A DNA stretch of 63,533 nucleotides. Source: Gemmatimonadota bacterium. GTDB lineage: Bacteria; JAAXHH01. The translations under genes and the position numbers were made by a program. A model generated the notes under the pieces. That model saw only the letters and a program-made list of their open reading frames with translations. It was not told the origin of the DNA and did not search any database. Position 1 is the first letter of the stretch; every line of letters begins with the position of its first letter. Positions 10,318 through 59,046 of the stretch are shown here, piece after piece. The stretch spans positions 1-63,533 of the forward strand of contig VXTP01000047.1 of the NCBI GenBank assembly GCA_009837395.1, written 5' to 3'.

Positions 10318-13300
10318 TTGCCGAAACGCACCGACATCGAATCCATCCTGATCATCGGCTCCGGGCCGATCGTCATCGGACAGGCCTGCGAGTTCGACTA
10401 TTCCGGCACCCAGGCCTGCAGGGCACTCCGCGAAGAAGGCTACCGCGTCGTGCTGATCAACAGCAATCCGGCCACCATCATGACGGACCCGGACATGGCG
10501 GACCGGACCTACGTCGAGCCCATCACCGCGGAATACGTGGAGAAGGTCATCCGGCGCGAGCGCCCCGACGTGCTGCTGCCCACGCTCGGGGGGCAGACCG
10601 CCCTGAACGTCGCCGTCGAGCTTGCCGAGTCGGGCACGCTGGACCGCTACGGGGTCGAGCTCATCGGCGCCAAGCTCGAGGCGATCAAGATGGCCGAGGA
10701 TCGGGAACTGTTCCAGCAGGCCATGGAGCGCATCGGTTTGGAGGTGCCCCGGGGCGGCTTCGCGCGGACCGTCGACGAGGCCTGGGAACTGGTGAAGGAT
10801 ACGGGCTTTCCCGCCATCATCCGACCGGCCTTCACCCTGGGCGGCGCGGGCGGGAGCATCGCGCGGAGCGAGTCGGAATATGCCGAGGCCGTCGAATGGG
10901 GCCTGTCCACCAGTCCCATCACCGAGGTGCTGATCGAGGAGTCGGTCATCGGCTGGAAGGAATACGAACTCGAGGTCATGCGGGACCTGGCCGACAACGT
11001 GGTGATCATCTGCTCCATCGAAAATTTCGACCCCATGGGCGTGCACACCGGCGACAGCATCACGGTCGCGCCCGCGCAGACCCTCACGGACAAGGAATAC
11101 CAGGCGCTTAGGGACGCCTCGATCAAGGTGATCCGGGAGATCGGTGTGGAGACGGGCGGATCGAACATCCAGTTCGCCGTCAGCCCGGAAGACGGCCGCA
11201 TCCTGGCCATCGAGATGAACCCCCGCGTGTCCCGCAGCTCGGCCCTGGCTTCCAAGGCCACGGGCTTCCCCATCGCCAAGATCGCCGCGAAGCTGGCGGT
11301 CGGTTACACGCTGGACGAAATCCCCAACGACATCACCCGCGAAACCCCGGCGTCCTTCGAGCCCACCATCGATTACGTGGTGGTGAAGATCCCGCGGTGG
11401 GCCTTCGAGAAATTTCCCAACGCCGACACCCAGCTCGGTACGCAGATGAAGTCGGTGGGCGAGACCATGGCCATCGGCCGGACCTTCAAGGAAGCGGTTC
11501 AGAAAGGGCTCAGGGGCCTGGAGATCGACCGCCACGGCCTCGGGGCTGACGGGAAGGACCAGGTGGACGGCGTGCTGGACGATCTCAGGGAACAGATGAC
11601 CCGGCCCACGGCGGAGCGCATCTTCCAGATCAAGACCGCCCTCCAGCTCGGCATGCCCATTGAAGAAATCTACACGTTGACCGGCGTCGATCCCTGGTTC
11701 CTGCACAACCTGCGGGACATCGTCGAGCTCGAGGGCGAAATCGGCGCACACCGGAACGGCTCCATGCCCCGGAAACTGCTGCACAGGGCCAAACAGGCCG
11801 GTTTCTCCGACATGCAGATCGCCCACCTGACCGGCAGCGACGAGCGGTCGGTCCGCGCCCGGCGCATCGAGGCGCGCGTGGATGCCGTGTTCAAGACTGT
11901 CGACACCTGCGCGGCCGAGTTCGAGGCCATGACGCCCTACTACTATTCGACCTACGAGACCGAGAACGAGACCCGGCCCAAGACGCGGAAGACGATCATG
12001 ATCCTCGGCGGCGGTCCGAACCGCATCGGCCAGGGGATCGAGTTCGACTACTGCTGCGTGCAGGCGGTCATGGCGCTGAAGGAGGACGGATACGAGACGA
12101 TCATGGTCAACAGCAACCCGGAGACCGTGAGCACCGATTACGACATCTCGGACCGGCTGTTCTTCGAGCCCCTCACCTTCGAAGACGTGATGAACATCGT
12201 CGAGACGGAAAAGCCAGACGGCGTTATCGTCCAGTTCGGCGGGCAGACGCCCCTCAAGCTGGCCCTGCCGCTCGAACGCGCGGGCGTGCCCATTATCGGC
12301 ACGTCGCCCGACAGCATCGACCTGGCCGAGGACCGCAAGCGGTTCGGCGCCCTGACGACGGAGTTGGGCATCCCCCATCCGCCCCACGGAACGGTCTTCT
12401 CCTTCGAAGAGGCCCTGGAGGTGGCGAGCGAGATCGGTTACCCCGTGCTGGTGCGGCCTTCCTACGTCCTGGGCGGCCGCAACATGGCCCTGGTCTACGA
12501 CGACGACTCCCTGCAGAACTACATGCGGACCGCCGTCCACGTGTCTCCCGAGCATCCCATCCTCATCGACAAGTTCCTCGAGGACGCCTTCGAGTACGAC
12601 GTGGACGCCATTTCCGACGGGACGGACGTCGTCCTGGGCGGGATCATGGAACACATCGAAGAGGCGGGCATCCATTCCGGTGACAGCGCCTGCGTGCTGC
12701 CGCCCTACATGGTCAAGCCCATGCATATCGACACCATGAGGAACTACACCCACGCCCTGGCAAGAAGCCTCAAGGTCGTCGGCCTGATCAACGTGCAGTA
12801 CGCCATCAAGAACGACGTGGTCTACGTGCTGGAGGTCAACCCGCGGGCCTCGCGGACGATACCCTTCGTGTCCAAGGCCATCGGCGTGCCCCTGGCCCAG
12901 TTCGCGGCGCAGGTCATGGCCGGGAAGACGCTGCGCGAACTCGGGTTCACCGAGGAGATCATCCCGCCCTACGCCTCGGTGAAGGAGGTCGTGCTGCCCT
13001 TCGTGAAATTCGCGGGGTCGGACAGCCTGCTCGGACCCGAAATGAAATCGACCGGCGAGGTCATGGGCATCTACGAAGAGCCGGGCATCGCCTTCGCCAA
13101 GGGACAGAGCGCGGCGGGCGGCTCCCTGCCCCTGTCCGGCACCGTCCTGGTCAGCGTCAACGCCTTCGACCACGAGAACGTCGTGGACATCGCCCGGGAG
13201 CTCGATCTGCTGGGTTTCACGATCATGGCGACGAGCGGCACCGGCCGCACGCTGGAGGAGGCCGACCTGGAGGTGGTCCGGGTCAACAAGGTCTGGGAGG

Positions 13301-14830: not shown

Positions 14831-16465
14831 ATGAAGCCACGTTATAAAACTGGTTATTTTGCGGCCGGCAACGTGCAGCGCACGCTCTGCCCGGTCACTT
14901 CCGTCGCACTGTCCACGATTTTAACTGCCGCGCTCTGGGGAATGGCTCTCTACGGCGTCACCTCGGCTTTCCCGGCTGCCGCCCAGACCGGGTCCGTGTC
15001 GATCACGGAGGACCCCGGGCCGGTGCCGGCGAAGGAGCTGGCGGAAAGGCGGGAACGGATACGCCAAGGCATGGGCAGCGGGATCATGGTCCTCTTCGGG
15101 GCGGAGCCCAAGGTATTCAGCAACGACGTGAACTATCCCTACCGGCAGGAAAGCAACCTCTTCTACCTGACCGGCATCAGCCAGCCCGGCGCCGCGCTCG
15201 TGCTGGTGCCCGGAAACCGAAGCCAGAAGGAGATCCTCTTCCTCCCCAGGCGCGACCCCGCACGGGAAATCTGGACCGGCCACATGATCGGGGTGGAAGA
15301 GGCCCGGCAACGGACCGGGATCGCCCATGTATGGCCGATCGAGGAATTCGACGCCTTCGTGGAGACTATCCTCAACGGTTCTGCCTATAAAAAACGTCCG
15401 TCCGATGACACCCGGGACTACCGGGCCATCGGCGAATCCATCGAGAATGGAACGCCCGTAGCCCTATGGCTCCTGGCCGACGCCAGTTCCAGGTACGGCA
15501 GCCGGTATCCGCAAGCCCTCCGGTTCGCGGCGGAGGCCGCCCGTTTTCCCGCCGTCCAGGTCCGGCTCGCGTCCGCCCTGTTCCGGGACCTGCGCGTCGT
15601 CAAATCGGACTGGGAGCTGCAGCGGTTGCAGCGCGCCGTCGACATCACCCGCCTGGCGCAGCGCGCCATCATGCGCCGGGCGGGCCGACCGGGCGTCCGG
15701 GGCGGCACCTTCGGAGCGGGCGGACCAGGCGGACCACTGAACGAATCCGTACTCGACGGCATCATTCTTTCCATCTACCGCGCCCACGGCGCGCACTGGG
15801 GTTTCCCGTCCATCGTGGCCTCGGGACCCAACGCCACGACCCTGCACTACGAGGAAAACAACCGGGAGATCGCGAGCGGCGAACTCGTCCTGGCCGATAT
15901 CGGCGCGGCCGTCGGATACTACACGGCCGACGTCACGCGGACCTTCCCGGTCGGCGGGGTCTTCTCGGAGGCCCAGCGCGAAGTATACGAGATCGTCCTC
16001 GACGCCCATGCCCGGGGCGTCGCCGCCGTCCGGCCGGGCATGACCATGCGCAGGGTGCATGAAGTGGCACGGAAAGTGATCGCGGACGGACTCCTGGAAC
16101 TGGGGCTGATCACGAGTACGTCGGGAAACCAGTACCGCATGTGGTACATGCACGGCACGAGTCACTGGATCGGGCTGGACGTCCATGACGTGGGCGGAAG
16201 GGACATGCCCTTCAGACCGGGCATGGTGATCACGGTGGAACCGGGCATCTACGTCCGGGAGGACACGCTCGAGAACCTGGACGACACCCCGCGGAACCGG
16301 GCGTTGATCGAGGAGATACGGCCCGCCTTCGAACGGTACCGGAATATCGGGGTGCGTATCGAAGACGACGTGCTGGTGACCGAAGACGGACACCGGGTGA
16401 TGTCGGAAGGCACGCCCCGGTCGATCGAGGACGTCGAAGCCTTCATGGCGAATCCCGTTCCTTGA
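14831..16465 (+). CDS. Exported Xaa-Pro aminopeptidase (M24B family)
   Basis: The product resembles PepP. An N-terminal creatinase/prolidase N domain (about 65-230) carries the LFYLTGISQPGAALVL motif. The C-terminal pita-bread domain has the five metal ligands in order: Asp356 and Asp367 (ADIGAAVGYYTADVTRTF), the His of HGTSHWIGLDVHD, the Glu of VEPGIYV and the Glu of RIEDDVLVT. A long N-terminal segment (about 1-52, hydrophobic core then AAAQ) looks like a signal peptide, unlike cytosolic PepP, so it probably works in the periplasm on proline-containing peptides. It sits alone between argJ and moeA. Confidence 0.9.
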   Translation: MKPRYKTGYFAAGNVQRTLCPVTSVALSTILTAALWGMALYGVTSAFPAAAQTGSVSITEDPGPVPAKELAERRERIRQGMGSGIMVLFGAEPKVFSNDVNYPYRQESNLFYLTGISQPGAALVLVPGNRSQKEILFLPRRDPAREIWTGHMIGVEEARQRTGIAHVWPIEEFDAFVETILNGSAYKKRPSDDTRDYRAIGESIENGTPVALWLLADASSRYGSRYPQALRFAAEAARFPAVQVRLASALFRDLRVVKSDWELQRLQRAVDITRLAQRAIMRRAGRPGVRGGTFGAGGPGGPLNESVLDGIILSIYRAHGAHWGFPSIVASGPNATTLHYEENNREIASGELVLADIGAAVGYYTADVTRTFPVGGVFSEAQREVYEIVLDAHARGVAAVRPGMTMRRVHEVARKVIADGLLELGLITSTSGNQYRMWYMHGTSHWIGLDVHDVGGRDMPFRPGMVITVEPGIYVREDTLENLDDTPRNRALIEEIRPAFERYRNIGVRIEDDVLVTEDGHRVMSEGTPRSIEDVEAFMANPVP

Positions 16466-16483
16466 AGGTCCGGCCGATAGCCG

Positions 16484-25148: not shown

Positions 25149-25484
25149 CTAATCTTGTCGTCCGCCCTGTTCGGCCGGTCCACCTGGTACGTCCGATCCG
25201 GTTGGCACGCCTGACTCGACGCGACCGCCCGATCCGTCCGTCCCGTCCGGTCGCTCCACCGGATCGTAACCGCCCGGGTGAAAGGGATGGCAGCGCAGCA
25301 GCCGCCACGCGGCCATGCGGGTTCCGGTGAACGGGCCCTTTCGTTCCAGTGCTTCGATGGCGTAATTCGAACAGGTGGGGGTAAACCTGCAACATGGCGG
25401 GAGGAGCGGGGAGATGACGAGCCGATAGCCGCGAACGCCCCAGACGAGCGTGGTCGTGATTGCCCTGGTCAGCCGTTTCCACAT
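25149..25484 (-). CDS. yidD: Membrane protein insertion efficiency factor YidD
   Basis: The conserved part (about residues 10-70) has the YidD pattern [19 protein letters not shown] followed by a [11 protein letters not shown] end. YidD assists YidC-dependent membrane insertion. The last 40 residues are a low-complexity Gly/Pro/Asp/Glu-rich tail not typical of the family and resembling the inserts in DnaA and GyrB here. Start ATG 25484 is chosen for homology (MWKRLTRAI). It overlaps the end of rnpA by 16 bases. Confidence 0.92.
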
Positions 25485-25840
25485 AAGCGTGTCACCGCGG
25501 TACGGTAGAGGGACAGGAACTCTTCGTTCATCTGGCGATAGGTCCATTCCCGGCCGGGACTGCGGGCGATGAGCACCAGGTGCACCCCCCTCTTCAGGCG
25601 GCACCTGTTCAACCGGTAGATCTCCCGCATTCTCCGGCGGACCTGGTTACGCTTGACCGCGCCGCCGTAGTGCCGGGTCACGATGAAACCGACCCGGCGC
25701 TCGAGCCGGTCCGGACACGCGGCCAGGGACAGGGTCATCGAACGTCCACGGACGGTCAGTCCGCATTTCCTGACCCGTTCGAACTCCCACCGGTGTCTCA
25801 TGCGTTCGTCGTGGGGAAAACGTCGGGAACCGGCGGCCAT
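25469..25840 (-). CDS. rnpA: Ribonuclease P protein component
   Basis: RnpA binds the RNase P RNA and helps process tRNA 5' ends. The family motif is seen as a basic patch, [16 protein letters not shown] (about 60-75), and the start [20 protein letters not shown] matches the usual opening of RnpA. The open frame runs upstream to 26047 in a different frame over rpmH, but ATG 25840 with AGGA upstream gives a normal 123-residue protein. It follows rpmH in the standard order. Confidence 0.93.
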
Positions 25841-26350: not shown

Positions 26351-27748
26351 ATGAAGCAGGAAGATCCTGCACAGCTCTGGTCGGTGTGCTTGTCGGAACT
26401 GAGGGGCATGATGCCCGCGCAGACGTTCGCGACCTGGTTCGAGCGGACCAAGGGGCATGACGTAACACCGGAAAAATTCACGATCGAGGTACCGAACCCG
26501 TTCTCCGGCGAACGGATGCTGAAGCGGTTTCACGACAAGATCAGCCAGGTCGTGACGACCCAACTCGGCCGCCAGGTCGTCATTGACTACCACATCTTCG
26601 AGGGCAATTCACAGATCATCCCCGTGCTTACCGACCTGCCCTCCTACGTGACGGACCGGGCGGACCGGGCGGACCAGGCGGACCAAGCTGACCGGGAAAA
26701 GCAGGCCGCGGGCGAGGCGGAATCGGACAACCTCTACGACAACTACACCTTCGAGAACTTCGTCGTGGGGGAGTGCAACGACTTCGCCCACGCGGCGTCC
26801 CTGGCCGTGGTGAAATCTCCGGGCCAGCAGACCTTCAACCCCCTAGTCATCTACGGCGGCGTCGGCCTGGGCAAGACTCACCTAGCGCAGGCGATCGCCC
26901 ACGAATCGAAGCGGCTCGGCACCGTCGACCGCAGCCGGTACGTCACATCGGAGATCTTCTACAACGAATTCATCGAGTCCATCCAGGAAAAGAAGACGAA
27001 GGAGTTCGCCCAGACCTACCGGAACGTCGACCTGCTGATCGTGGACGACATCCAGTTCTTCTGCAAGGGGCACAAGGACCGCACCCAGGAGGAGTTCTTC
27101 CACACCTTCGACGTGCTGCGCCAGAAGGGCAAGCAGATCGTCCTGACCAGCGACCGCATTCCGAAGGAGCTTTCCGGCCTGGAGGAACGGCTGGTGTCCC
27201 GGTTCGAGTGGGGGCTTCTCGCGGACATGAAGCCGCCCGACTACGAGACCCGGGAAGCCATTCTACAGAAGAAGGCGGACAAGGACGGGCTGTCGCTCAG
27301 CCCGGACGTCATCGCCTATATCGCCGACCGCGTCGCATCGAACATCCGGGAACTGGAAGGCGCCGTGCTCAGCCTGCTGGCCTACGCGTCGCTGAGTCAC
27401 TGCGACATTACCATCGAAGTGGCGAAGCGGGTGCTGAGCAACAAGATCCGCAGAAAACAGCGCTCAGTGGGGATGGAAGACATACAGAAGGCCGCGGCCG
27501 GCCATTACGGCGTGTCCGTCGAGGATCTCGCCGCGAAGACGCGAAAGAAGCACGTGGTGGCAGCCCGCCAGGCCGCCATGTACCTTTGCCGGGACATGAC
27601 GCGCGCGTCGCTCAAGGATATCGGCGCGGTTTTCGGCAAGAGAGACCACACCACCGTCATACACGCCTGCCAGACGGTCAAGAAGCTCCTGTTGAACGAC
27701 GAAACCCTCCAGGAAGACCTCGATAAGATCAGAAATTCGCTGGCTTAG
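26351..27748 (+). CDS. dnaA: Chromosomal replication initiator DnaA
   Basis: DnaA binds DnaA boxes, opens the origin and recruits the helicase. Domain I is at about residues 1-85 ([22 protein letters not shown]). Domain II is a short low-complexity linker with four RAD/QAD units (about 97-120). Domain III has [10 protein letters not shown], Walker [11 protein letters not shown] and Walker [11 protein letters not shown]. Domain IV ends with the DNA-binding signature [16 protein letters not shown]. Length 465 is normal. The linker repeats are DNA-level near-copies of a GGACC-type repeat, and part of them recurs near 54619. Confidence 0.98.
26653..26710. repeat. GGACC-type nonamer repeats in the dnaA linker
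   Basis: Units of about nine bases close to gcggaccgg are repeated four to five times and encode the [13 protein letters not shown] run of domain II. The last part, 26690-26710, encodes ADREKQAA and matches 54619-54639 at 20 of 21 positions. Confidence 0.85.
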
Positions 27749-47729: not shown

Positions 47730-48422
47730 ATGACACTGGTTGCGTGCGGGCTGCTCGCGCTGGGCGTCCTCGCCTACATGATCAGTCCGATGCTGGACGG
47801 TTCGGTCCGCCGCCCCCGGATCGCCCGGTCCGCCGGGTCCCGCCGGGACGACCTGCTGAAGAAGAAGGATTTCATCTATTCTTCCATCCGCGAACTGAAT
47901 ATCGACTACAACATGGGCAAGCTGGCCGCCGAGGATCACGAGGCGCTCCGGCAGGAGTACATGAAGGAAGCTTCGGACGTGCTGGACGAACTGGACCGTA
48001 CCGCCGTCAGCGACCTGCCCGTGGAGGAACAGATCGAGGAGGCGGTACGGGAAATCCGGCGGCGCAGTGAACCGGGATCCGAAGAGACCGTGACCGTCGA
48101 CGACGATGCTGCGGGAGTGAAGGAAGCCAAAGACGAGGTCGATGGCGACGAGGCGGCGGTAGAAGAGACCGCTGTAAACGCGGCCGCAGAAGACGCGCCC
48201 GCAGAAGACGCGCCCGCCGGAGGCGCGCCCGCCGACGACGCGCGGCCCGTTCCGTCCGCACAAGTCCAGGTATGCAGGATTTGCCGAACGGTCAACGAGG
48301 CGTCCGCCAGATTCTGCATCGAGTGCGGCGTTTCGCTGAAAACCATCACCTGCGCCGGTTGCGGTGCGGAAAACCCGGCATCGGCCAGGTTCTGCGCCCA
48401 GTGCGGAGGAAAACTGATCTAG
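47730..48422 (+). CDS. Membrane protein with CcmI-like N-terminus and double zinc ribbon
   Basis: An N-terminal membrane helix (about 2-20) is followed by a helical region (about 38-110: KKDFIYSSIRELNIDYNMGKLAAEDHEALR) similar to that of CcmI/CycH-type assembly factors. Residues 115-180 are an Ala/Asp/Glu/Pro low-complexity segment with an EDAP repeat. The end holds two zinc ribbons: CRICRTVNEASARFCIECG and CAGCGAENPASARFCAQCG. Its position between ccmE and ccmA suggests a role in cytochrome c assembly. The zinc-ribbon addition is unusual for that role. Function inferred only. Confidence 0.7.
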   Translation: MTLVACGLLALGVLAYMISPMLDGSVRRPRIARSAGSRRDDLLKKKDFIYSSIRELNIDYNMGKLAAEDHEALRQEYMKEASDVLDELDRTAVSDLPVEEQIEEAVREIRRRSEPGSEETVTVDDDAAGVKEAKDEVDGDEAAVEETAVNAAAEDAPAEDAPAGGAPADDARPVPSAQVQVCRICRTVNEASARFCIECGVSLKTITCAGCGAENPASARFCAQCGGKLI

Positions 48423-49620: not shown

Positions 49621-50440
49621 TCGATCCGCCTCGGACCTTGCTGGCACCTCCGGTGTCAATGTTTCCTCCGGCGTCGCTGGCGCCCCCGGTGTCGATGGTG
49701 CCGCCGGTGCTCCCGGCACCTCTGGCGCCCCAGGAATCGCTGGCGCCCCAGGAATCAGCGTCCGCCAGTTGACGAAGACCTACGGGCGTTTCAGGGCCCT
49801 TCACCGGGTGGACATGGACGTGGCGCCGGGATCCTTCCTGGCCCTGTTCGGTCCCAACGGCGCGGGCAAGTCGACCCTGCTGGGTATCATCGCCGGGCTC
49901 GTTCGCCCATCCCGCGGACAGGTGTTCCTGGACGGCGAGGAAATCACGAAGGACCGCGACGAAGACCTGGGGAAGCGGATCGGCGCGCTGTCCTACCAGA
50001 CCTATCTCTACGACGAACTGACCGTGCTGGAGAACCTGCGGTTCTACGGGAGGCTCTTCGGGGTGGAAAACCGCGAGGACCGGATAGGATCGCTGCTGAC
50101 CACGGTGGGCATGGAGGCCAGGTCGGGGAGCCCGGTACGGACCCTGTCGCGCGGCATGCGCCAGCGGGTAGCCCTGGCCCGCGCCCTGCTGCACGATCCT
50201 GATATCCTGTTGCTCGACGAGCCCTACTCGGGTTTGGACCAGGACGCGATGGTCATGCTCAAGACGGTCCTGGCCGCCCGGGACAAGACGGTCCTCCTGG
50301 TGACGCATGACCTGGTCCGCGGACTGGAATCCGCAGACCGCGTCGCCATCCTGAACCATGGACGGCTGGTGTTCGACGCCGAGACCAGCGAACTGTCGCC
50401 CTCGGATTTCGAGCAGACCTACCGCGATCACGTGGTGTAG
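49613..50440 (+). CDS. ccmA: Heme exporter ATP-binding protein CcmA with collagen-like N-terminus
   Basis: CcmA drives release of holo-CcmE with CcmB and CcmC. Walker A GPNGAGKSTLL, signature LSRGMRQRVALARALL, Walker B ILLLDEPYSGLD and switch VTHD are present. Before the conserved start (ISVRQLTKTYG, about residue 48) there are about 47 extra residues made of G-A-P-G/G-x-x units like collagen (GAPGTSGAPGIAGAPG). The repeats are visible in DNA as near-copies of about 18 bases. An internal start is possible but no good ribosome site is seen. Its start overlaps the preceding gene. Confidence 0.92.
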   Translation: MGDRSASDLAGTSGVNVSSGVAGAPGVDGAAGAPGTSGAPGIAGAPGISVRQLTKTYGRFRALHRVDMDVAPGSFLALFGPNGAGKSTLLGIIAGLVRPSRGQVFLDGEEITKDRDEDLGKRIGALSYQTYLYDELTVLENLRFYGRLFGVENREDRIGSLLTTVGMEARSGSPVRTLSRGMRQRVALARALLHDPDILLLDEPYSGLDQDAMVMLKTVLAARDKTVLLVTHDLVRGLESADRVAILNHGRLVFDAETSELSPSDFEQTYRDHVV

Positions 50441-52146: not shown

Positions 52147-52962
52147 ATGGCCGATCGAACGGAAAGTATCGCGCCGGACTGTTTCTCGCACATTCACATC
52201 ATTCTCGTAGAACCGAAAGTGCCGGGGAACATCGGCGCCGTCGCCCGGGCCATGACGACCATGGGGCTTTCCCGCCTCGTCCTGGTCAATCCGGCCGAAT
52301 TCCGCCACGAGGCCGAGGCCCGTTGGATGGCCCACGGGGCCGGGGATATCCTCGACAACGCCCGCGTCGTCCCGGCGCTGGACGAGGCGGTGAATGATCT
52401 CGCCCTCGTCGTCGGCACGACCAACCGCACCCGCGGGATCTGGCTAAGCCCCATACAGCCCATTGAAGCGGCCTGCGCCGAACTGTCCTCCGTTGCGCGG
52501 AACCAGCCCTGCGGCATCCTCTTCGGGCGGGAAGACCGCGGCCTGCTGAACGACGAACTCCAGCACTGCAACGTCATCGCCCGGATCCCCGCGGCGACAT
52601 CCTACCCTTCACTCAACCTGGCCCAGTCGGTCATGGTCTGCGCGTACGAACTGTTTCGCCAGAGTGTGGATGGTGGAGAGGCGCCGCACCCGTCCGACGT
52701 ACGCCTGGCGGAGCACCGGGCCGTGGAGCGCGTTACTCGGCGCGTGCACGAGACGCTGCTCCGGCTCGGATTCGAGTCCACGCCGAACGAGGAAACCTTT
52801 CTGCGCTCCATCCGCCGCGTCCTGCGCCGCAGCCTGCGGCTGGAGCAGCGCGACGTCGCCGTGCTGCACAAGGTATGCGACGAGATCGACGCGTACGTGG
52901 ACCGCCGCTCGGCATCGCCCGGTCCGCCGGACGCACCCGGTCCGCCCGGTCAGTCCGATTAG
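52147..52962 (+). CDS. trmJ: tRNA (cytidine/uridine-32-2'-O)-methyltransferase TrmJ-like
   Basis: A SPOUT-class methyltransferase of the TrmJ/LasT group. Motif 1 is IILVEPKVPGNIGAVARAMTTMGL; the knot motifs follow as CGILFGREDRGLLNDEL and RIPAATSYPSLNLAQSVMVCAYEL. A helical C-terminal part is typical of TrmJ. The last 20 residues are Pro/Gly/Asp-rich repeats similar to the low-complexity tails of other proteins here. It converges on truA with a 17-base gap. Confidence 0.9.
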   Translation: MADRTESIAPDCFSHIHIILVEPKVPGNIGAVARAMTTMGLSRLVLVNPAEFRHEAEARWMAHGAGDILDNARVVPALDEAVNDLALVVGTTNRTRGIWLSPIQPIEAACAELSSVARNQPCGILFGREDRGLLNDELQHCNVIARIPAATSYPSLNLAQSVMVCAYELFRQSVDGGEAPHPSDVRLAEHRAVERVTRRVHETLLRLGFESTPNEETFLRSIRRVLRRSLRLEQRDVAVLHKVCDEIDAYVDRRSASPGPPDAPGPPGQSD

Positions 52963-52979
52963 CCCGATCAGCCCGACCC

Positions 52980-53732: not shown

Positions 53733-54554
53733 TCAGAAAAGTAGACCGGCGGTGCCGATGCTGTTGACTGCCGCGCCGAGGACGAGCAGGGCCGTCACGG
53801 CCGCGATGGCCACGAAGTCGTTCCGGGCCAGGGCCATGACGCGGAACTGCGTGCGTCCGGCGCCGCCCCGGTAGCAGCGGGATTCCATGGCGACGGCCAG
53901 CTCCTCCGCCCGCCGGAAAGCCGAGAGCATGAGGGGCACCAGCAGGGCGGTCATCTTCCGAACGCGCCGGATCGGATTGCCGGTGAAGTCCGCGCCCCGG
54001 GCGGCCTGGGCCTTCTGCAGGCGGTCCGCTTCCTCCACCAGCGTCGGGATGAACCGCAGGGCGATGACCATCATCATGGCCAGCTCATGGGCGGGCAGTC
54101 CGAACCGTTCCAGGGGCTTGAGCAGCCGCTCGATGCCGTCCGAAACGTCCAGCGGCGCCGTGGTCAGCATCAACAGCGCAGCGATCAGCATGATGACCAC
54201 CAGGCGCAGCGTGAACACCGCCCCCTGGAACATCCCTTCCCAGGTGGGTCCCGGCACGGTGTATCCCGCGATGATCACGGCGTCTCCCGGCGTGAAGCAC
54301 GCATGGGCTGCGAAGGTGATGATCAGGATCAGGCGGAAGGCCTTCAGGTTGTTCATCGGCAGGTGGAGCGGAACGCCGGAGACCCGCACCAGTGCCGCGA
54401 CCACGGCCAGCATGAAGAAGAACAGCGGCAGGGTCTTTATCCAGATCAGCGCCGCCATCAGCACCAGGGCGCCGCACAGCTTGGTTCGCGGGTCCAGGCG
54501 GTGGATGGGAGACTCGCCGGGATAGTACTGACCCAGCGTCAGGTTCTGGAGCAT
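53733..54554 (-). CDS. ecfT: Energy-coupling factor transporter transmembrane protein EcfT
   Basis: EcfT is the membrane scaffold of ECF vitamin and metal transporters. It has about five membrane helices and the two coupling-helix signatures: KAQAARGADF after ALRFIPTLVEEADRL, and SRCYRGG. ATG 54554 (MLQNLTLGQYYPGESPIHRLDPRTKL) fits the family start, although the ribosome site is weak and the frame extends upstream to 54656. No EcfA ATPase or substrate-binding S component gene is adjacent, so those must lie elsewhere. Length 273 is normal. Confidence 0.9.
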   Translation of the reverse strand: MLQNLTLGQYYPGESPIHRLDPRTKLCGALVLMAALIWIKTLPLFFFMLAVVAALVRVSGVPLHLPMNNLKAFRLILIITFAAHACFTPGDAVIIAGYTVPGPTWEGMFQGAVFTLRLVVIMLIAALLMLTTAPLDVSDGIERLLKPLERFGLPAHELAMMMVIALRFIPTLVEEADRLQKAQAARGADFTGNPIRRVRKMTALLVPLMLSAFRRAEELAVAMESRCYRGGAGRTQFRVMALARNDFVAIAAVTALLVLGAAVNSIGTAGLLF

Positions 54555-54998
54555 GGAGGTTCTTGAACTGAAATCATCAGCAAGGCGGGGTGAGACAGGT
54601 GAGCCGGCGGGCCGGGCGGACCGGGAAGAGCAGGCCGCGAAGGATGGGAACATCACGCTTCACGGTCGACGCCCCACGGTCGCGTCCAGGCAATAAAAAA
54701 CCCCACACAGGCGAGCATAAGTATTTTTAGGAGAACCTGTTCGGAACAGTGGTTGTCCCCCCGGGCAGTTCTGACGTCCTCCGTTCTGGTGAGGCATGCC
54801 ATCGATACCCGGAGCAGGATTCCCTATGGTATAGCAAAGGTTCTTTTAAAATGACTTTGCTGGAAACCTGTGTGAGGTAACCATCATTATACCTGATGCG
54901 AGGCGGGCCTGCAAGAGTTTTTGAGTTTTTCTCAACCGGCGTGACACGGGGCGTCAGGGATTGCCGCCGGGTTCTGCCTGCCGGCGCGGGGATAGCTG
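54555..54998. other. Gene-free region upstream of ecfT
   Basis: This 444-base stretch has no gene that I can support. It contains a GGACC-type repeat patch (about 54601-54645) that matches the dnaA linker, a short direct repeat (acggtcgac / acggtcgcg near 54662-54682), AT-rich patches near 54690-54720 and 54840-54890, and a small hairpin TTGAG-ttttt-CTCAA at 54921-54935. None is a convincing terminator. Confidence 0.6.
54619..54639. repeat. Dispersed copy of the dnaA linker repeat
   Basis: These 21 bases match 26690-26710 inside dnaA at 20 positions. Read on the plus strand they would encode ADREEQAA, compared with ADREKQAA in DnaA. Here the sequence is non-coding, upstream of ecfT. Confidence 0.85.
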
Positions 54999-56609: not shown

Positions 56610-56825
56610 CTTCTCTTCGATTGCGCGGACCGTGCGGGCCATGCGGACCGGTGGAAGCAGCCCAGCGGCACCGTCCGCTGGTTAAAATATGACGCGGGTT
56701 TTCCCCATGGTCAACGGAAACAGAGCGTTGAGGCCTGTTATTGAGGCCGTGTTATAATGAGTAGTCGGAGCGTGAACTACAATCTAGCATACCGGCGTGA
56801 TAAAAAAGTCCTCTTGCGATGAACC

Positions 56826-58083: not shown

Positions 58084-59046
58084 TCACAGGTCGAAGAACA
58101 GCCCGATCCCCGCGTAGTCGTCCTCCAGGTGATGGAACTGTCCGTGCTCGCTGCGGCCCCCGTGGTATACGAAGGCAATGCGTAGGCCCCGTGAAGCCTC
58201 GTTGTGAAACAGAAGGCCCGCGTGGGCCGTGCGGTTGACCGAGATGTCCCCGTCCCGAAACAGCCGCACGTCGCAGGCCAGGTAGGCCCGGGTTGTGCCG
58301 CCATCGCCCGAGAGGGGACGGAAGACCAGCTCGGCGCCTCCCTGGACCCGCCACCGCCGCACGTCAGGGATGGCGTGGTTCGACCACCGCAGGCTGCCGT
58401 AGACACGGGCGGAACCGATCGCGGATCCGACGGCGGATCCTGGCGCGAAGCGCAACTCGCTGGCGCCGTAAACCGTGAAATACTCCCGGCTGTAGGTCAT
58501 GGCCCGCCTGGCTCGCATGGTCCGGTCTGCCTTGTCGGCCTTGCCCGCGTGGTCCGCGTGGCTCGGTCCTTCGTACCCTTCGTACCCGCCGTACCCTTCG
58601 TACCCGTCGGCCAGGTGGGCGCTCACATGGGCGTATTCGAACCGCCCGGTGTACCTGTCGTTTCCCAGGTCCGCGTGGAAGCCGATCAGGTAGTCGGCGG
58701 TCTCGAGGGGAAAGGTCGTTCCCGACCGGCGCAACTTCGAGAAGACGCCCGCATGGATCCCGGTACGGAACCGCAGCCCGCCGTCCGCGCCCCACGCATA
58801 GTCGGCGGCCTCCCAGGAACCGCCGATGTCGCCGTTCAGCCGGTCGCCCAGGTTGGACGTTATCGCCAGCCGCGCCTCGGTCGGGTCGGCCAGCAGCGGA
58901 CGGAACAGCCGCTGCTGCGGGGCGGCGAAGCGCCAGGTCCCGCCGGAGGCCTCCACCGAGCCAAGGGCCGGGCCGATAGTGAGGAATAGAACCCCCATGC
59001 CGGCGAACCAAGGTAACCTTCGCAGGATAGTGTACATAATTGCCAT
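58084..59046 (-). CDS. DUF1207 family outer-membrane-type protein
   Basis: A signal peptide (about 1-30) is followed by the DUF1207 start pattern FRPLLADPTEARLAITSNLGDR. The rest alternates hydrophobic and polar residues with many aromatic ends, as in a beta barrel, finishing with YAGIGLFFDL, which has a terminal aromatic or Leu typical of outer-membrane proteins. An inserted loop (about 148-178) is made of YEGYGGYEGYEG and then HADHAGKADKADR, low-complexity units like those in other proteins here. Function unknown. Confidence 0.75.
   Translation of the reverse strand: MAIMYTILRRLPWFAGMGVLFLTIGPALGSVEASGGTWRFAAPQQRLFRPLLADPTEARLAITSNLGDRLNGDIGGSWEAADYAWGADGGLRFRTGIHAGVFSKLRRSGTTFPLETADYLIGFHADLGNDRYTGRFEYAHVSAHLADGYEGYGGYEGYEGPSHADHAGKADKADRTMRARRAMTYSREYFTVYGASELRFAPGSAVGSAIGSARVYGSLRWSNHAIPDVRRWRVQGGAELVFRPLSGDGGTTRAYLACDVRLFRDGDISVNRTAHAGLLFHNEASRGLRIAFVYHGGRSEHGQFHHLEDDYAGIGLFFDL

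Follow-up and report, generated by a model that had tools for sequence, protein, structure and literature searches.

A 21-bp match between the dnaA linker and the ecfT spacer probably marks the edge of a genus-restricted family of dispersed 9-bp tandem repeats

The DNA analysed here, a stretch of 63,533 nucleotides referred to throughout as the window, holds dnaA, a gene essential for replication, in one part and, in another, the CbiQ-family gene ecfT with a divergent 6S-like RNA gene on its 5′ side. Each of the two places contains one of a pair of closely similar 21-base segments:

26351 to 27748, plus strand: dnaA, with Pfam domains PF00308 (Bac_DnaA), PF08299 (Bac_DnaA_C) and PF11638 (DnaA_N)
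26690 to 26710, plus strand: dnaA-side 21-mer, made of 7 bp of the last unit of a tandem array and 14 bp of native dnaA linker (codons EKQAA)
53733 to 54554, minus strand: ecfT (CbiQ family), assigned by Pfam PF02361 and by synteny in the genus
54619 to 54639, plus strand: spacer 21-mer, non-coding, between the 6S-like gene and ecfT, present also in congeners G010 and G006 and absent from G005 and G008
54696 to 54881, minus strand: divergent 6S (SsrS) RNA gene, matching Rfam RF00013 over its full length (1-187) at 24.4 bits, below the gathering score of 46.4

The dnaA-side segment lies between DnaA domain I (residues 8-69) and the AAA+ domain (residues 130-291), hence in the linker formed by domain II, which is unstructured and the least conserved part of DnaA (PMC5742627). 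Its counterpart begins 65 bp upstream of the conserved start of ecfT, between ecfT and the 6S-like gene, in a region taken as non-coding because congeners keep the ATG at 54554 and the DNA before it diverges. Here and below, G000 is the source genome in a genus set of 12 genomes, and the labels G001 to G010 denote congeners. The spacer between the 6S-like gene and ecfT (54555-54695) is itself variable, with about 5.6 kb separating both genes in G003 and unrelated DNA preceding ecfT in G001, G002, G004, G007 and G009. The RNA gene is nearly identical in congeners, and its orthologues score 25.6-29.1 bits against RF00013; at 24.4-29.1 bits overall the gathering score is not reached despite the full-length match, and the Rfam threshold would miss the 6S-like gene in this phylum.

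Direct comparison within the window shows that 54619-54639 (GACCGGGAAGAGCAGGCCGCG) and 26690-26710 (GACCGGGAAAAGCAGGCCGCG) share 20 of their 21 bases, read in the same strand, as the initial annotation of this DNA had stated, and that the two copies are placed as it had said, one in a coding linker of dnaA and the other in non-coding DNA upstream of ecfT. Both directly follow tandem 9-bp units in the same register, and each forms the right-hand edge of an array. The unit has the consensus CGGACCRGG (profile C.86, G.62, G.75, A.61, C.77, C.90, A/G.95, G.89, G.76) and occurs in tandem elsewhere in the window, where the array sites, some of the high-scoring ones quite degenerate, are as follows:

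15681 to 15736, plus strand: array in the aminopeptidase P (pepP) gene, read as GGPGGP, with constant flanks and a fully different interior in five congeners
25160 to 25252, minus strand: array forming the C-terminal tail of a gene (25149-25604, minus strand) that was recognised as yidD-like by eye from its translation
26652 to 26706, plus strand: array in the dnaA linker, 58.9 bits, encoding 18 residues
31137 to 31222, minus strand: array close to the C terminus of a protein of 1511 residues
47815 to 47846, minus strand: array antisense to the gene of a zinc-ribbon protein
52916 to 52975, minus strand: array covering a SpoU methylase gene's C-terminal tail with its stop codon, together with the spacer between that gene and truA
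54606 to 54635, plus strand: short array in the ecfT spacer, 27.8 bits, with about two copies at 54606-54625
56625 to 56651, plus strand: array at the start of a HicB-like gene
58522 to 58561, minus strand: array in a DUF1207 gene

The dnaA array, for example, has 5.0 copies at 26652-26696 (86% matches, period 9), and with short units repeated head to tail at period 9 the arrays have the form of variable-number tandem repeats of the 5-11 bp class. The yidD-like gene belongs to the dnaA region and has rnpA and yidC next to it. Tandem arrays of other units are also found in the window, at 2447-2494, 48178-48243, 49650-49756 and 58568-58609 (units of 21, 15, 18 and 9/18 bp, respectively), several of them variable in length between congeners, and the genome is generally rich in short tandem repeats.

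Members of the 9-bp family run in both orientations and in all three codon phases, sense and antisense, as well as through intergenic DNA, and the peptides they encode include ADR/ADQ, GGP, RTG, QAG and others. Because the unit is retained on both strands, in all phases, in spacers and under such varied peptides, it is kept at the level of DNA. By a simple codon-usage gene caller, 55 of the 65 arrays detected in 862 kb of the genome fall within predicted genes and 10 in spacers, and since this genic share (about 85%) is close to the coding fraction (about 90%), there is no strong avoidance of genes. Selection on protein, with the genus favouring charged or glycine-proline linkers and the repeat in the DNA as a by-product, would be in keeping with the position of most strong arrays within genes or beside them, often in linkers or tails; but the use of every codon phase, the antisense and intergenic placements, and a genic share no higher than the coding fraction make this very improbable, and the use of phases and strands largely refutes it.

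The family extends well beyond the window. The 15-base pattern CGGACCNGGCGGACC has 171 matches at up to one mismatch in the source genome, and a periodic profile detected 65 arrays, 61 of them non-overlapping, in 862 kb of it. Since the unit is nearly mirror-symmetric, its reverse being a rotation of itself, a reversed pattern is not a valid control for array patterns, and permuted units and other genomes served instead: in a 343-kb subset the true unit gave 36 arrays against 0-11 for the permuted ones, which numbered only ten and included one GC-rich permutation that reached 11. Across the genus, a 24-mer array pattern has 39-246 matches per genome in 12 of 12 genomes, compared with 0-2 in two genomes from other genera of the family and two genomes of the order. 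These other-genus relatives have a GC content near dnaA of only 0.39-0.50, and seven further genomes, several of 59-64% GC, were therefore searched; each gave 0-3 forward or reverse array matches (0-6 with both directions and the control). An artefact of GC content was rejected on the basis of the permuted units and of the other GC-rich genomes, in which the pattern is all but absent. The arrays thus form a dispersed family, with one unit at many loci in some lineages only, and are restricted to one genus of uncultured Ca. Latescibacterota, for which no earlier description of these 9-bp repeats was found in the open-access library searched.

Against this background, the 21-bp match probably represents, jointly with the wider explanation given below, the edge of the dispersed 9-bp family. 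The 21-mer arises at the junction of the dnaA array with the native linker codons that directly follow it (consensus GAACAGCAGGCCGCG), and it is not itself dispersed. The initial annotation had proposed a dispersed repeat able to land in genes in frame; yet in the whole 3.80-Mb genome, searched with up to three mismatches, only these two copies are found at up to one mismatch, the next-best match has two mismatches and adjoins no array, and the matches at two to three mismatches (5, against 4 for the reversed pattern) are background. Among 11 genomes of the genus, matches at up to two mismatches are mainly dnaA itself and the ecfT spacer of G000, G010 and G006, besides a few unrelated low-grade ones. 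A dispersed repeat lying in frame in many genes does exist, and it is the adjoining 9-bp tandem repeat. It had also been argued that chance identity of this length is unlikely, which overstates the case: shuffled windows yield a mean of 0.08-0.20 direct 20/21 pairs, so that the pair alone is weak evidence.

The array does not account for the whole match at ecfT, where the bases beyond it also agree. The 14 bases after the dnaA array (AARAGCAGGCCGCG) are native to dnaA, as the dnaA of G009 has GAACAGCAGGCCGCG without an array, and they match the spacer at 13 of 14 positions, for which the background is 2-4e-6 per position; given the same array at both loci, this agreement is less easily credited to chance. 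The spacers of G000, G010 and G006 carry array and tail side by side; those of G005 and G008, though alignable, have neither. A piece of 30-40 bp of the dnaA linker, comprising the array end and the native tail, may have been copied from a template into the spacer between the 6S-like gene and ecfT in an ancestor common to G000, G010 and G006. Template switching during repair is one way in which this could have happened, and the homology of the arrays may have guided it. We rate such a templated copy at somewhat under even odds: the presence of the tail in the array-less dnaA of G009, the behaviour of array and tail as a block, and the closeness of the tail match speak for it, as does a second candidate in the window, in which carB 11473-11493 recurs inverted at 21 of 21 bases at 16458-16478, immediately following pepP (with 31/39 when a longer stretch is compared), a match confined to G000 and G010 and absent from four other congeners; the similarity stops at the tail with no further likeness of flanks, however, the genome has no third copy, arrays generally lack common flanks, and shuffled windows already contain 0.1-0.2 direct 20/21 pairs each. 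Such copying cannot be argued from the genome-wide excess of short isolated repeats, which consists mostly of conserved motifs of paralogues and is therefore unusable as evidence of templated insertion.

The other account of the tail, to which we give about an even chance, is coincidence: the same array stands at both loci, and the neighbouring GC-rich, unit-like bases agree fortuitously. The yield of direct pairs in shuffled windows (0.08-0.20) is in keeping with it, and the tail lends itself to being read as a pair of decayed units (GGGAARAGC AGGCCGCGR). By our own estimate from the tail background, about one such tail match is expected over all pairs of arrays in the genome, but the conditional chance over the arrays of the window is only of the order of 1e-3.

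How the arrays themselves change can be followed in five congeners that have stretches collinear with the window at about 84-94% identity. At ten array sites compared, the flanks, where a species has them, map to unchanged window coordinates, and the interiors differ in length and sequence while staying near the family consensus. Coding indels peak at 9 bp (26) and 18 bp (17), compared with 20 for a length of 3 bp and 15 for 6 bp. Of the 143 indel calls of at least 6 bp in genes, 30 coincide with arrays, which fill about 1% of the window; indels common to several genomes are counted more than once in these figures. The DnaA linker measures 27, 27, 33, 33, 36, 36, 39, 39, 42, 45, 45 and 48 residues across the 12 species; every one of these lengths is divisible by three, which in DNA makes it a multiple of 9 bp. 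Copy number therefore varies by whole units between related genomes, one genome per species having been compared.

These observations bear on whether an element carrying the array (of MITE, REP or RPE-like type) has been inserting in genes. A dispersed distribution and restriction to one genus would suit such an element, but no terminal inverted repeats or hairpins were found in the arrays, whose DNA folds no better than shuffled sequences (z -0.7 to +0.9), and flank sharing between different arrays is not above that of random positions; the sites are old and common within the genus, with the turnover taking place inside them. Both a hairpin-driven element and the copying of arrays with their flanks as a general mode were rejected on these grounds; the hairpins that the initial annotation had advised looking for did not appear beyond the level of shuffles, and the fuzzy boundaries of the arrays blur any target-site duplication. 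With no such hairpin, no common flanks and no element boundaries, a mobile element is scarcely probable, and the gain and loss of units in place fits better than the landing of an element.

The explanation we consider probable is instead a genus-specific minisatellite family with a 9-bp unit, whose units are gained, lost or replaced in place and which is tolerated in linkers, tails and spacers. Each array would gain, lose or replace whole units where it stands, through slippage during replication or through unequal exchange among its units. The dispersal of the arrays, their confinement to the genus, their constant flanks with changing interiors and the 9-bp steps in dnaA are direct observations; slippage or unequal exchange, judged from the differences between species, is the most likely mechanism. 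Arrays are tolerated in genes because nine is a multiple of three and the unit contains no stop codon in any frame, and they would persist where length matters little, as in flexible regions such as the DnaA domain-II linker, in C-terminal tails and in spacers; we infer that tolerance rather than benefit is the reason for the sites they occupy. One unit common to unrelated loci needs more than slippage, namely biased birth, seeding (old, with loss) or inter-locus exchange. An extended form of the explanation, which we hold to be rather unlikely, is that old, fixed array sites are kept near one consensus by inter-locus exchange and rewrite protein linkers and tails in frame, sometimes copying pieces of flanking genes; if true, the rewritten proteins would include DnaA, YidD, aminopeptidase P and the SpoU methylase, and the piece of dnaA in the ecfT spacer would be an example of such copying.

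Several known systems resemble parts of this picture. The PGRS sequences of mycobacteria consist of GC-rich 9-bp core units that encode glycine-rich, length-variable tracts in one protein family; the present arrays are likewise GC-rich, with 9-bp units encoding tracts of variable length, but they are spread over unrelated genes, both strands, all codon phases and spacers. Rickettsia palindromic elements are units of 100-150 bp that sit in frame within protein genes unrelated to one another and also in spacers, a distribution that the arrays share, whereas the arrays have neither a palindrome nor a fixed element length. The closest known kinds are the dispersed heptanucleotide families. The STRR and heptanucleotide families of cyanobacteria, Beggiatoaceae and Xanthomonas comprise many dispersed arrays with a patchy occurrence among relatives (PMC4679880, PMC4692102), and in Xanthomonas over 90% of the heptanucleotide arrays are intergenic, and the arrays were found to be rather stable (PMC4692102). 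They and the 9-bp arrays have in common one short unit in many dispersed tandem arrays, patchily distributed among relatives; the STRR unit, however, is 7 bp long and almost only intergenic, whereas the unit here is 9 bp and its arrays are mostly genic (55/65), in frame and of fast turnover. Work by Mrazek and colleagues on long bacterial SSRs with units of 5-11 bp, as PMC4679880 summarises it, describes multiple-of-three units as those tolerated in coding DNA and proposes slippage. The arrays agree with these in unit length and proposed mechanism, but that work deals with classes of repeats by length, whereas in the present case one and the same unit turns up in unrelated genes throughout a genus. 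The 9-bp family thus belongs to the broad kind of dispersed tandem repeats, set apart by its 9-bp unit, its in-frame genic sites and its fast turnover.

For the analysis of such genomes, the case carries the warning that agreement of two places at 20 of 21 bases may reflect the edge of an array and not a mobile element. For the biology of the genus, one 9-bp unit at unrelated loci alters the length of the DnaA linker, and of further protein regions, by whole units at a time with no frameshift. The 12 species offer a natural series for asking how far the DnaA linker can vary, and with the family as a whole one can ask by what route a single short tandem unit has come to stand at unrelated loci.
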